Shown here: positions 1,469 to 60,214 of the stretch, piece by piece
Layout of the letters: every line of letters starts with the position of its first letter
Position numbering within the stretch: the first letter of the stretch is position 1
DNA from: Geovibrio ferrireducens
GTDB taxonomy: Bacteria > Chrysiogenota > Deferribacteres > Deferribacterales > Geovibrionaceae
Direction: 5' to 3'
DNA: 64,000 bases
NCBI RefSeq assembly: GCF_026226615.1
Contig: NZ_JAJAPB010000003.1
Location: forward strand, 62,001 to 126,000
The notes under the pieces: generated by a model
Databases searched by the model: none
What the model was told of the DNA's origin: nothing
Seen by the model: only the letters and a program-made list of their open reading frames with translations
Made by a program: the position numbers and the translations under genes

Positions 1469-1858
1469 ATGAGATTTCTTAGTCTGGCAGAAGTGCTTGA
1501 AATCCATAAAGATCAAATAGCCCGCTACGGCGGAATGCTCGGAGTAAGGGATATTGAACTGCTGAAATCAGCTCTTGGCATGCCGCCCGCTTCTTACGCC
1601 GGTGAATATCTTCATACTGATATTTTTGAAATGGCTGCCGCATACCTGTTTCATATTGCCAAAAACCACCCGTTTAACGATGGGAACAAGCGTGTGGGGA
1701 TAGCAGCCGCTTTGGTTTTCCTTCTGCTCAACGGTTACGAACTTGACGCACCGGAAGATGACGTTGCTGAAATGGTCATTGCTGTTGCCTCAGGAAAGCT
1801 CAGTAAAGCAGAAGCCGCTGTCTTTATCCGTAAGCAGAGCAGAGTTCAGCAGGCTTAA
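1469..1858 (+). CDS. doc: Death-on-curing (Doc) family toxin
   Basis: 129 residues, the usual Doc length. The Fic/Doc catalytic motif HPFNDGNKR is intact at residues 67-75, with the active-site His67 and the anion-binding loop. Doc enzymes phosphorylate EF-Tu and stop translation; canonical Fic enzymes use HPFx[D/E]GNGR, and the terminal KR with Asn before Asp is diagnostic of the Doc branch. The gene follows the AbrB-type antitoxin by 15 bp. Its stop overlaps the stop of the convergent sfsA by 4 bp, which suggests a clean insertion of the module between holA and sfsA. All key residues are present, so it is probably active. Confidence 0.9.
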   Translation: MRFLSLAEVLEIHKDQIARYGGMLGVRDIELLKSALGMPPASYAGEYLHTDIFEMAAAYLFHIAKNHPFNDGNKRVGIAAALVFLLLNGYELDAPEDDVAEMVIAVASGKLSKAEAAVFIRKQSRVQQA

Positions 1859-55719: not shown

Positions 55720-56205
55720 CTAAAAATCGAGCTGTAAAACCGCTTTCGCGATATTGTCCAGCTTTATGCAGAATTCTTTATTTTCTTTTTCAACGAACAG
55801 CTTAACAACGCCGTTCTCCACACCGGTAATGGTTCCGGTGTAGCTTTTACGCCCCGTATCATCCTTTTCTTTGGCTGTGACTTTGCAGATTTTTCCGGAG
55901 AACTTGAGGAAGTCCTTCTCGCTGCGGAGCGGCCTTTCAAGTCCGGGAGTGGAGACCTCGAGGCTGTAGCCGTCATAGGGGATAAAATCCGCTTCGTCCA
56001 GCCATTTTGAAATGCGTCTGCTTATTTCAGCACACTCGTCAAGTCCGGGCAGACAGTCCTCCCTGTCGATGACAATACGAAGGGTTCTGCCTGTTTTTTC
56101 CCGCCTGAAAGTTACATCAAAAATATCCACGCCTATCTCTTTAACGATAGGCACAAGCGCGTTTCTGACTTTGGACGAAATATCTTTCTCTATAAAATTA
56201 CCCAT
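55720..56205 (-). CDS. rimP: Ribosome maturation factor RimP
   Basis: 161 residues. N-terminal domain with 'LRIVIDREDCLPGLDECAEISRRI' (by part 'RIVIDREDC') and 'YSLEVSTPGLERPL', then a small SH3-like C-terminal domain. First gene of the nusA-infB operon, 8 bp before nusA. The sequence before its ATG lacks a strong Shine-Dalgarno, and a terminator-like hairpin lies 12-40 nt upstream. Confidence 0.95.
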   Translation of the reverse strand: MGNFIEKDISSKVRNALVPIVKEIGVDIFDVTFRREKTGRTLRIVIDREDCLPGLDECAEISRRISKWLDEADFIPYDGYSLEVSTPGLERPLRSEKDFLKFSGKICKVTAKEKDDTGRKSYTGTITGVENGVVKLFVEKENKEFCIKLDNIAKAVLQLDF

Positions 56206-56217
56206 ATAAACAGCTAC

Positions 56218-56244
56218 AAAAAAATTGGTGGGATAACTCCCACC
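56218..56244 (-). terminator. Terminator-like hairpin directly upstream of rimP
   Basis: GGTGGGA (56227-56233) pairs with TCCCACC (56238-56244) around TAAC; on the minus strand the hairpin is followed by seven U residues (56218-56224), and rimP begins 13 nt later. It could simply end transcripts from the PHP gene, whose stop is at 56321, or attenuate rimP-nusA-infB expression. Confidence 0.75.
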
Positions 56245-56320
56245 GCTAATTTAACTACCACAATTTAAATTTCAATGCAAGATATTTTGACTCTGTGCGG
56301 GTTACAGATGAGAAGTGAGT

Positions 56321-57481
56321 TTATATGCTGTAAACAGTGCAGTTTTTTTCCGACAGTTTTTCGAGAAGCCGCGCAGGAACCGAAGCATCCTCACAGCCGT
56401 GTCCGCCCAGATGTATTCCGGGCTTGATCCTTTCACCGTGAAAGTCGCTTCCTGCTGTTGCAATAAGGTTTTTTTCTTTCGCAAACCGGAGATACTCCGC
56501 TCTTTGCTGCGCATTATGATATGTGGAATATATCTCAATCCCTTCCACTCCGTCTATGAAAAGCTCCATGATTTTGCCTTGCGGGTAAAGCCCCGGATGC
56601 GCCACAGACAGTACAGATTTATCTGAAAGCACGGCAACACATTTTCGGTAATCAAGCAAACTCACATCAACATAGGCTCTGCCGCCTTTAAAAAAGTAGT
56701 CGAAATAGAAATTGGTATATGGCGAGCCTGATTTAGCACCGCTGAGATAAGGTTCAAGCTCAGGAAGATTTTCCTCATACTCCGCCAGCACCCGCAGAAA
56801 TGTCACGCCCGAAGGGGTTTTCCCTGCGGCGGCTTCAATAACCCTGTCAAAATCCACTTTCATACCTATGCTCCTGAGCTTATCTGTGCGCAGCCTCGCC
56901 TGATTCAGCCTGTTTGCGGCAAATTCATCCAGAAGCGCTGCCAAGTCACCGTCATCAGGATCTATGCCGTAAGGAATAAGGTGTATTTCCGTATCATCGT
57001 GATAAGTTGAAAGCTCCACAGCGGGGATAAACAGAGTGCTTCCGTCACCGTCCCTGAAAGAAAGCATTTCGCGCACGGAGGAAACAGTATTGTGATCTGT
57101 TATGGAAAAAAGAGAGTAATCACGTGAACGCAGAACGGCGTATACATCCAAAGGAGACAATACACCGTCCGAACTGTGACTGGTGTGTATATGCAGGTCG
57201 AATTGATGGATAGTTCGCAGATCGGGACATCCTGTCCGGCTGCTCACACGCTCGCGGCGGGATAAACCCTCCTTCGCTTCGCACGGCGCAACCCCTTCCA
57301 TGGGGTTGTGGGACTCAGACTGATGGATAGTTCGCAGACCGGGACATCCTGTCCGGCTGCTCACACGCTCGCGCCGCTTGGAAAGCGGCTTCGCTTCGCA
57401 CGGCGCAACCCCTTCCTTGGGGTTGTGGGACTCAGACTGATGGATAGTTCGCAGATCTAGACATCCTTTACCGCTTCGCAA
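56321..57481 (-). CDS. PHP-domain phosphoesterase with repeat-derived N-terminal insert
   Basis: 386 residues if initiated at the TTG at 57481, which has AAGGAG 6 nt upstream. The catalytic domain starts near 'FDLHIHTSHSSDG' (metal-binding DxHxHT) and shows 'ITDHNT' and 'TAGSDFHG', fitting the TrpH/RNase AM-like PHP group. Preceding it are two 39-codon units, each starting 'LRTIHQ', created by in-frame 117-bp palindromic repeats. Compared with relatives, which normally start at M-x-DLHIHT, this 78-residue insert is abnormal. A later start in the last unit (GTG near 57246) would avoid it. Confidence 0.8.
   Translation of the reverse strand: MRSGKGCLDLRTIHQSESHNPKEGVAPCEAKPLSKRRERVSSRTGCPGLRTIHQSESHNPMEGVAPCEAKEGLSRRERVSSRTGCPDLRTIHQFDLHIHTSHSSDGVLSPLDVYAVLRSRDYSLFSITDHNTVSSVREMLSFRDGDGSTLFIPAVELSTYHDDTEIHLIPYGIDPDDGDLAALLDEFAANRLNQARLRTDKLRSIGMKVDFDRVIEAAAGKTPSGVTFLRVLAEYEENLPELEPYLSGAKSGSPYTNFYFDYFFKGGRAYVDVSLLDYRKCVAVLSDKSVLSVAHPGLYPQGKIMELFIDGVEGIEIYSTYHNAQQRAEYLRFAKEKNLIATAGSDFHGERIKPGIHLGGHGCEDASVPARLLEKLSEKNCTVYSI
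57205..57466 (+). repeat. Two tandem 117-bp units containing composite elements F and G
   Basis: GATGGATAGTTCGCAG recurs at 57205, 57322 and 57439, exactly 117 bp apart. Element F: hairpin CGGGACA/TGTCCGG with TCC loop (57223-57239), core (57246-57289) and hairpin CAACCCC/GGGGTTG (57289-57308). Element G: CCGGGACATCCTGTCCGG (57339-57356), core and CAACCCC/GGGGTTG (57406-57425). The middle hairpins differ: GGCGGG...CCTCC in F, CCGCTT/AAGCGG in G. Confidence 0.9.
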
Positions 57482-57899
57482 GCAAGTCTCCTTAAACGTC
57501 ATTCTGAACCCGAAGGGTGAAGAATATCAAAAACTGAACAAGCAGGCGGCTTGAGGATTCTTCGTTAAAGATCAGAAAATCCTCCCCAGCCCTCCTTTCA
57601 AAAGGAGGGAGTTTGCCTTTACCGACAATAACATCCCTCTTAACAAGCCAAGATCGTCACTGCGAGGAGCCGAGGCGACGAAGCAGTCTCTTAAAATATA
57701 CTGAGAGATTGCTTCACCTTTCCAAGGTTCGCAATGACATATTAAAACTGATAACCCGCGTTAAACGCTGCAAGGTTCATGTCTGAGTTAATATCGCCGT
57801 ATCTACTTCCTGTGATACGGCTGAAACCGCTCGCGGCGGGATAAACCCGCCTTCGCTTCGCACGGCGCAGCCCCTTCCATGGGACTGCAGGGAAGAATC
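57482..57899. repeat. Repeat-filled intergenic region between the PHP gene and iorB
   Basis: Contains CATTCTGAACCC...GAAGAAT (57499-57526), GGATTCTTCG...AAAATCC (about 57555-57588), a CCCTCCTTTC/AAAGGAGGG palindrome (57592-57610), CACTGCGAGGAGC...GAAGCAGTC (57658-57693) with an inverted CATTGCGAACC... partner (57704-57738), a 42-bp copy of the iorB 3' end (57742-57783), and composite element H (57797-57888: hairpin CCGTATC/GATACGG, middle hairpin GGCGGG/CCCGCC, hairpin GCAGCCCC/GGGACTGC). No complete gene. Confidence 0.85.
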
Positions 57900-57941
57900 T
57901 TAAAACTGATAACCTGCGTTAAACGCTGCAAGGTTCATGTC
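57742..57941 (-). repeat. 42-bp direct repeat of the iorB 3' end flanking element H
   Basis: 57742-57783 and 57900-57941 are identical except one base (CCCGCG versus CCTGCG). Both encode the last 13 residues of IorB and its TAA (DMNLAAFNAGYQF). They are 158 bp apart and enclose composite element H. Confidence 0.9.
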
Positions 57942-58472
57942 AACTGTTTTGGGCGGAACCTTTTTGGAGATCACGGTGCGCCAGAGATCCGCATCAAAGG
58001 GAAGCAGTGCTGCAAGCTTGCCCAGCATAACCATTCCCGCAACTTTTGAGTTGCCAATGGCAGTCGCGGTTTTCATGGCATCTATCTCAAAAACCTCTTT
58101 AAAAGCTTTTTTAGTCTCCTCGGTCTGCTCGGCAGGGTAAGTTTCCTGACCGCCCGCAACAGAAGGGGGATAAATGCGGTATTTGTTTACCACCAGCGAT
58201 GTGTTTTTCCCCGCATATTCGGGATAACGCAGAAACTCCATATTCTCGAAAGAGATAACAATATCTGCCTCACCCACCGGGATAACGGGCGAAAGCACCT
58301 TAGCCCCGATGCGCACATGGGAAACCACGCTGCCGCCCCTCTGCGCCATGCCGTGGATTTCGCTTTTTTTAACATCCGCGTCACCCGCAAGGGCAACATC
58401 GCAGACTATATCGCTTGAGAGAACAGTTCCCTGTCCCCCCACACCTATCATTAATATATTAATATCTTTCAT
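57900..58472 (-). CDS. iorB: Indolepyruvate:ferredoxin oxidoreductase beta subunit
   Basis: 190 residues. POR gamma-type domain; 'GVGGQGTVLSSDIVCD' and 'EIHGMAQRGGSVVSHVRIG' (by part 'HGMAQRGGSVVSHVR') are typical. It pairs with IorA to oxidise aryl-pyruvates to aryl-acetyl-CoA with ferredoxin, part of aromatic amino acid fermentation or biosynthesis in anaerobes. Starts 2 bp after iorA. Confidence 0.95.
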   Translation of the reverse strand: MKDINILMIGVGGQGTVLSSDIVCDVALAGDADVKKSEIHGMAQRGGSVVSHVRIGAKVLSPVIPVGEADIVISFENMEFLRYPEYAGKNTSLVVNKYRIYPPSVAGGQETYPAEQTEETKKAFKEVFEIDAMKTATAIGNSKVAGMVMLGKLAALLPFDADLWRTVISKKVPPKTVDMNLAAFNAGYQF

Positions 58473-58474
58473 AA

Positions 58475-60214
58475 TTATCCCCTTTGATGAATAGCGTTAA
58501 ACCTGCATACCTTAACGCAGAGTTCGCAGCCTGTGCAGAGGGTTTCATCTATGAACGCCCTTTTCTCTTCCTTGTTCCAGAGGATAGCGGGACAGCCGAG
58601 CCTTGTGCAGATTGTGCAGCCGGAGCAGTTGTTCACATCCACATAGAAAGGAGGCTTGATCACGCTTCTGTCTGCGAAAATGCAGGGTTTATCAGTCACG
58701 ATAACACTGAGTTCCTCTTTTGCGGTTTCCTCTTTCAGAACCTTTATGCATTCATCAGGGTCAAAAGGGTTCACTGTTCTTATATTCTTCACTCCCATAG
58801 CCTCAAGAAGCTTGGGGAAGTTTATCTTCTGGGTCGGTGCGCCTTTGATGGTGCAGCCTGTTCCGGGGTTAGGCTGGTGACCTGTCATTCCGGTGATGCT
58901 GTTGTCCAGAATGATAACCGTGGATGTTCCGGCGTTGTAAACAGAGTTTAAAAGACCGTTTATACCCGTGTGAAAGAAGGTTGAATCACCAATAACCGCA
59001 ACGGATTTTCTCGCCAGTGCACCGTCAGTGGCTTTGTCCATTCCGTGCGCCATAGGGATGCTCGCCCCCATGCACACTGTGGAGTTAATGGCGCTAAGAG
59101 GCGGCAGAAGACCAAGGGTGTAGCAGCCTATATCACCCGCGGCGAAAAGCTTAAGCTTAGCTATGGCATAAAACATGCCCCTGTGCGAACAGCCCGGACA
59201 CATATTGGGCGGGCGCGCCGGAAGCTGTCTGGGATCAAAAGCAGGTTCCCTGACGCTTTTTCCGAAAAGCTTTCTCACCTCATCCACGGAAAGCTCACCG
59301 CAGACGCTTCTGTTCAGAGGCTCAACCTCTATTCCCGCCGCTTTAAGCTCGTTCTCGATGAATCTGTCAAGCTCTTCAACAACATAAAGCTTCTTAACCT
59401 TTTCAGCGAAGCGCTTTATCTTCTCAAAGCATATCGGATAAACCATCTCAAGTTTAAGGATGGATGCTTCGGGCATGGCTTCCTTGACATAGTGATATGT
59501 CACTCCGGCGCAGATTATGCCTATCTCCTCACTGCGGAACTCCACAGGGTTAATAGTGAGCCTGCCGGTGTCCGCACAGTCAGAGAGCTTATCAAGTCTG
59601 TTTTCAACAATCTTGTGGCGCACTCTGGCATTGGCGGGAACCATAACCCATTTTTTTATATCATTTTCCGGTTCAAATATCGGAGGGGTGTTTCTGGCTT
59701 TGAGGGCAACAACCGATTTACTGTGGGAAATCCTTGTACATGAACGCACAAGAACGGGAGTACAGTATTTCTCGGACACTTCAAGGGCGATGCCGATGAA
59801 GTCCTTGGCTTCCTGACTGTCTGCGGGCTCAAGCATGGGAACCTTCGCCAGACGTGCATAATGCCTGCTGTCCTGCTCGTTCTGGGAGCTGAACATATTA
59901 GGATCATCCGCAACCACGATAATCAGACCGCCGTTTACGCCGGTGTAGGAGACAGTCATCAGCGGATCGGCCGCAACATTAAGCCCCACATGCTTCATAC
60001 AGGTCATGGCGCGTCTTCCCGCGAGGGATGCACCTATAACCGTTTCAAGGGCAACCTTCTCATTAGTTGCCCATTCGCTGTATATTTCATCATACTGAGC
60101 CACATGCTCGGTAATCTCGGTACTGGGCGTTCCGGGGTAGGAGCTGACAACCTTCACCCCGTATTCATACGCTCCTCTGGCAAACGCCTCGTTTCCGCTT
60201 AAAACTTCCTTCAT
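58475..60214 (-). CDS. iorA: Indolepyruvate:ferredoxin oxidoreductase alpha subunit
   Basis: 579 residues. The N-terminal pyrimidine-binding domain ('SSYPGTPSTEITEH'), middle domain and TPP-binding 'GDIGCYTLG' and 'GDSTFFHTGINGLLNSVYN' region (by part 'GDSTFFHTG'). Two C-terminal [4Fe-4S] motifs: 'CSGCTICTRLGC' and 'CTGCELCVKVC'. Complete and consistent with an active oxygen-sensitive enzyme. It abuts the upstream TM gene. Confidence 0.96.
   Translation of the reverse strand: MKEVLSGNEAFARGAYEYGVKVVSSYPGTPSTEITEHVAQYDEIYSEWATNEKVALETVIGASLAGRRAMTCMKHVGLNVAADPLMTVSYTGVNGGLIIVVADDPNMFSSQNEQDSRHYARLAKVPMLEPADSQEAKDFIGIALEVSEKYCTPVLVRSCTRISHSKSVVALKARNTPPIFEPENDIKKWVMVPANARVRHKIVENRLDKLSDCADTGRLTINPVEFRSEEIGIICAGVTYHYVKEAMPEASILKLEMVYPICFEKIKRFAEKVKKLYVVEELDRFIENELKAAGIEVEPLNRSVCGELSVDEVRKLFGKSVREPAFDPRQLPARPPNMCPGCSHRGMFYAIAKLKLFAAGDIGCYTLGLLPPLSAINSTVCMGASIPMAHGMDKATDGALARKSVAVIGDSTFFHTGINGLLNSVYNAGTSTVIILDNSITGMTGHQPNPGTGCTIKGAPTQKINFPKLLEAMGVKNIRTVNPFDPDECIKVLKEETAKEELSVIVTDKPCIFADRSVIKPPFYVDVNNCSGCTICTRLGCPAILWNKEEKRAFIDETLCTGCELCVKVCRFNAIHQRG

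Follow-up and report, generated by a model that had tools for sequence, protein, structure and literature searches.

A dispersed three-hairpin repeat abuts the PHP domain of a Geovibrio phosphoesterase gene and probably supplies its N-terminus

Rickettsia palindromic elements (RPEs) are dispersed palindromic repeats of about 100–150 bp that lie in frame in conserved genes and are tolerated there; an RPE-bearing Gmk is both translated and active (PMC2229807). The 107-bp NEMIS or Correia elements of Neisseria and ERIC/RU-1 are small non-autonomous repeats with open frames, at times fused to other or conserved genes, and are grouped with MITEs having terminal inverted repeats (PMC2229807). The repeat described here lies within a 64,000-nucleotide stretch of Geovibrio ferrireducens DNA (the window), and the original prediction likened it to RPEs. 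That likeness holds for in-frame presence in a conserved protein gene, here a PHP-domain gene in three species, but does not extend to architecture, sequence or lineage. An RPE is a single long stem-loop formed from terminal inverted repeats, whereas the Geovibrio element consists of three separate covarying hairpins of different sequence. RPEs occur within many Rickettsia genes, while the Geovibrio element, in the Deferribacterales, was seen in a single gene, at its 5' end, among about 270 copies. Unlike NEMIS and ERIC it stands in tandem arrays with locus-specific spacers, and RNAalifold on 54 copies gave consecutive separate hairpins with no end-to-end pairing or inverted repeat. The Caulobacter CIR is similar in size (about 110 bp) and in having linker-joined hairpins in place of one end-to-end palindrome, but carries GANTC and is described as not found intragenically. 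The Geovibrio element works like an RPE but is a different family, and by structure or lineage it is none of RPE, NEMIS or ERIC. Small structured repeats are known to have turned coding in a few other bacteria, to which this case would add one more lineage and an element family that nothing in Rfam matches.

The genus comparison rests on three genomes, that of the window species (G000) and those of the other two species (G001 and G002). The unit belongs to a dispersed family of more than 100 copies in the G000 genome, each of about 100 bases, with 56–102 BLAST matches per genome across the three congeners. A linker pattern matches 153 times in G000, and the reversed control pattern not once. 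The alignment of 54 copies resolves three variable hairpins with the conserved linkers GCGCCGTGCGNAGCGAAG and GCGAGCGTGT between them, and 21 of the 25 predicted pairs carry two-sided compensatory change. All Rfam matches within 56000–58600 fall far under the gathering threshold, and we found no description of the element in the literature on the genus or on in-frame repeats. A covariance model finds strong matches in the genus (at least 62 per genome); elsewhere in the family, and in a small number of further genera of the order, its matches are weak. Genomes of genus g13 (G023 and others), from another family of the order, each hold up to 12 weak matches, the best with E of about 1e-8 to 1e-12, which may represent a remote relative of the element. 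At many loci the element and a locus-specific spacer are repeated in tandem with periods of 100–202 nt, mostly not multiples of three, the spacers being duplicated within the arrays; several arrays (L115, L118, L119, L122, L128, L131, L137, L148 and L151) reach up to five units, with a near-constant period at each locus. In orthologous pairs such as L086/L135, L078/L124 and L096/L132, among others, one hairpin is often kept and another has given way to a different one that is likewise self-complementary. Whole hairpins are swapped in this way, with the breakpoints falling in the conserved linkers, probably through gene conversion between copies.

At the PHP locus, two units of this family lie within a minus-strand open reading frame that runs from an ATG at 57502 to 56321 and is open throughout. 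Its features are as follows.

56321..57202, minus strand: coding sequence of the PHP-domain phosphoesterase, its conserved part with the stop codon (profile match, homologue alignment, pN/pS)
57204..57320, minus strand: unit 2 of the element, the proximal one, 117 nt, with orthologues in G001 and G002
57321..57437, minus strand: unit 1 of the element, 117 nt, with no stop in the gene frame
57438..57480, minus strand: partial element, a degenerate right end with hairpin 3 and the tail (repeat family D3, 84%)
57479..57481, minus strand: TTG, likeliest start in G000, codon -93 before the domain (sequence and duplex energy; without conservation in congeners)
57488..57493, minus strand: AAGGAG Shine-Dalgarno-like site (sequence; duplex energy -7.9)
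57245..57247, minus strand: GTG, codon -15, candidate start within the element, without a Shine-Dalgarno site, common to the three species (species comparison, duplex energy)
57218..57220, minus strand: CTG, codon -6, candidate start of near-cognate type, preceded by AGGA in a hairpin loop (duplex energy)

As predicted, the two 117-bp units (90% identical) are in frame with the PHP domain, the frame stays open through both with LRTIHQ three times in the translation, and a TTG at 57481 stands behind an AAGGAG site at 57493-57488. The idea of an insertion within a gene is right as to frame and in that a conserved gene carries the element at its 5' end, but needs revision as to position, because the element abuts the first codon of the domain and has replaced the native leader and start.

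The PHP domain begins at the phenylalanine at 57202, the codon directly after the last unit, and NCBIfam profiles align from their position 1–3, which indicates that the domain is complete and that only its start is missing. Matches to YciV, RNase RNM and 3',5'-nucleoside bisphosphate phosphatase cover the whole domain but score under the equivalog cut-offs. The protein is therefore placed in a related subfamily, as a relative and not an assigned member of these enzyme groups, and its N-terminal extension is peculiar to Geovibrio. The HxH, DH, E, HP and SDxH motifs, which we take to be the metal ligands of the PHP fold, are invariant in an alignment of 20 homologues, made without one Denitrovibrio-related copy carrying an in-frame stop (the orthologue L013 in G007, with a single TAG). 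The invariant D-x-H-x-H sits among the first domain residues. Across the three species pN/pS is 0.17–0.20 in the domain and 0.11–0.18 in its first 20 codons, at high, near-saturated synonymous divergence, which places the domain under purifying selection from its first codons onward.

The element ends at the same codon, in the same frame, of the orthologous PHP gene in all three species. The junctions, with a slash at the element end, read CTGCGAACTATCCATCA/A TTC GAC in G000, CTGCGAACTATTCATCA/G TTC GAT in G002 and CTGGGAACTATTAATCA/A TTC GAC in G001, and share the consensus CTATyNATCA/r TTC GAy CTG CAT AT (three of three). Relatives without the insert, whose comparison had been proposed as a check, do exist: in the nearest outgroup genera no element is present at the PHP start, and the gene begins 7 or 10 codons ahead of the phenylalanine, mostly at TTG and sometimes at GTG or ATG, most of these starts having strong Shine-Dalgarno sites. 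The shared junction together with the element-free outgroups makes the junction older than the split of the genus. The event can thus be dated and is orthologous in three species, and it lies at the very 5' end of the gene, where the element either supplies the start or lies behind it; how new N-termini arise from repeats can therefore be tested directly.

None of the three species has an ATG, GTG or TTG between the element and the domain. The next start past the junction is a TTG at the 15th domain codon, which would delete the D-x-H-x-H motif. Since the first codons are under purifying selection, the first residues bind metal and no canonical start is left ahead of the domain, initiation has to lie in or upstream of the element. 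It is a strong inference from sequence that the N-terminus of the protein is element sequence, and the predicted contribution of a repeat to protein sequence is supported to this extent. Very probably at least the last 6–15 element codons are translated, and probably whole units are.

The exact start appears to depend on the species. In G000 the likeliest is TTG 57481 (codon -93), with a duplex energy that 2.9% of random start triplets equal, for a Shine-Dalgarno site chosen after it had been seen; the ATG at 57502 further upstream is in frame and lacks such a site. G001 offers an ATG at codon -42 with AAGGA (duplex -4.9), and G002 an ATG at codon -89 that overlaps the iorB end and has no Shine-Dalgarno site. 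With a likely start that differs in each species, gene callers may misplace the start of this gene. The original prediction had also taken a unit length divisible by three and the lack of stops as a likeness to palindromic elements that insert within open reading frames. As evidence, the openness of single units has to be rejected, as 61 of 141 copies (43%) are open in the same frame, and the 117-nt period is partly chance given the periods of other arrays. An open tandem pair is more unusual, with read-through in a given frame at 2.6–4.5% across 13–29 other array loci, and such a pair is open in the gene frame in both G000 (period 117) and G002 (period 129). The proximal elements of these two species are orthologous, so the two open pairs are not fully independent; being rare elsewhere, they favour upstream starts, short of proof.

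Our preferred model, with a probability of roughly 0.62, combines these observations. Before the three species separated, a three-hairpin dispersed repeat came to abut the first domain codon, and comparison shows that the native short leader, start codon and Shine-Dalgarno site were lost. Ribosomes must then start in or upstream of the element; in G000 they would initiate at TTG 57481 after AAGGAG, pass through two whole units and place a disordered, tolerated tail of about 93 residues on a complete PHP enzyme. The element may be tolerated because it has a stable length and often no stops, and because the N-terminal leader of the domain is unconstrained.

An unlikely alternative is initiation at GTG 57247 (codon -15) in the last unit, with the element giving the start and 15 residues and everything upstream forming an untranslated leader. 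The original prediction had named a GTG near 57246 as a late start that would speak against it; the in-frame codon is actually at 57247, and such a start would also fall inside the element. This GTG is the only canonical start that all three species have in the same position, but its conservation is uninformative because it is part of the conserved linker of the repeat, every species lacks a Shine-Dalgarno site there (duplex -1.8 to -2.4), and the open upstream pairs would become coincidence. Improbable, too, is a near-cognate start at the element end, either CTG 57220 (codon -6) or an ATC or ATT at codon -3, with the AGGA in the hairpin 3 loop as ribosome site. CTG and AGGA are present in all three species with duplex energies of -4.9 to -7.3, and the outgroups start at codon -7, almost the same place. 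However, bacteria seldom start translation at CTG, ATC or ATT, and the CTG sits in a hairpin stem whose conservation is that of the repeat. We likewise doubt a broader proposal, in which hairpin 3, with its AGGA loop and nearby CTG or GTG, would be a portable translation start that took over the start of the gene before the genus diversified; if it were true, the repeat family would carry its own ribosome-entry module. A decaying pseudogene with a chance open frame would fit the missing canonical start at the native place, but is scarcely credible with a domain intact in all three species, a pN/pS of about 0.2 at near-saturated synonymous sites and invariant metal ligands.

Between species the proximal unit has a pN/pS of 1.0–1.4 and a synonymous difference of 12–18%, compared with about 65% in the domain, and so gives no sign of selection on the peptide and evolves as a structured repeat. 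AlphaFold2 places residues 1–87 below a pLDDT of 50, mostly at 25–30, and the domain mostly at 85–97. We infer that the extension is a tolerated disordered tail and no functional domain, its DNA being of a structural or selfish kind. If fully translated, it would hold peptides such as TGCPGLR or SESHNPMEGVAPCEAK.

The search for other in-frame copies that the original prediction had called for turned up the PHP gene only. About 270 copies were compared with long open reading frames (about 130 in G000, all but some 20 of its copies, together with a subset of 112 in G002 and one of 31 in G001), and among these, in three genomes, no second recognisable gene had a PHP-like in-frame fusion at its start. 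Candidates at an aminotransferase gene (L083/L139), cmk (L090), pilT (L183), an Xer-like gene (L218) and a kinase gene (L203) were rejected, their start codons lying behind or at the element end. At L218 (around 1600–1690, minus strand) the ATG of the Xer-like tyrosine recombinase gene directly follows hairpin 3, so that here the element appears to supply a putative ribosome binding site.

Upstream of the PHP gene, the following features bear on the history of the locus.

57739..57783, minus strand: duplicate of the iorB 3' end (repeat family D4)
57785..57890, minus strand: element A, immediately behind iorB, likewise placed in G001 and fused with element B in G002
57900..58472, minus strand: iorB-like gene, putative small subunit of a 2-oxoacid/indolepyruvate oxidoreductase, named by sequence likeness; upstream neighbour

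In G000 and G001 the order is readable as iorB, element A, duplicated iorB tail, other DNA, element B array and PHP gene. This order can be read as ancestral, and the best reading of G002 is a deletion that fused elements A and B. An ATG in the iorB tail common to G002 and genome G003 was considered as the ancestral start and rejected, as G000 and G001 share the older arrangement. The duplicated tail is the 45-nt iorB 3' end (57897-57941), which recurs at 57739-57783 on the far side of element A, and likewise in G001; spacer duplication thus extends into the gene end. In G001 (L154, 6094–8667, and L177) several kilobases with an autotransporter-like gene lie between element A and the elements of the PHP gene, as though the repeats had offered a site for landing or recombination. 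In G000 the DNA that separates iorB from the PHP gene (57500–57780) is filled with further pieces resembling dispersed repeats (GTCATTGCGAACC... and CTTCACCCTTCGGGTTCAGAATGACG), and similar stretches flank many other elements.
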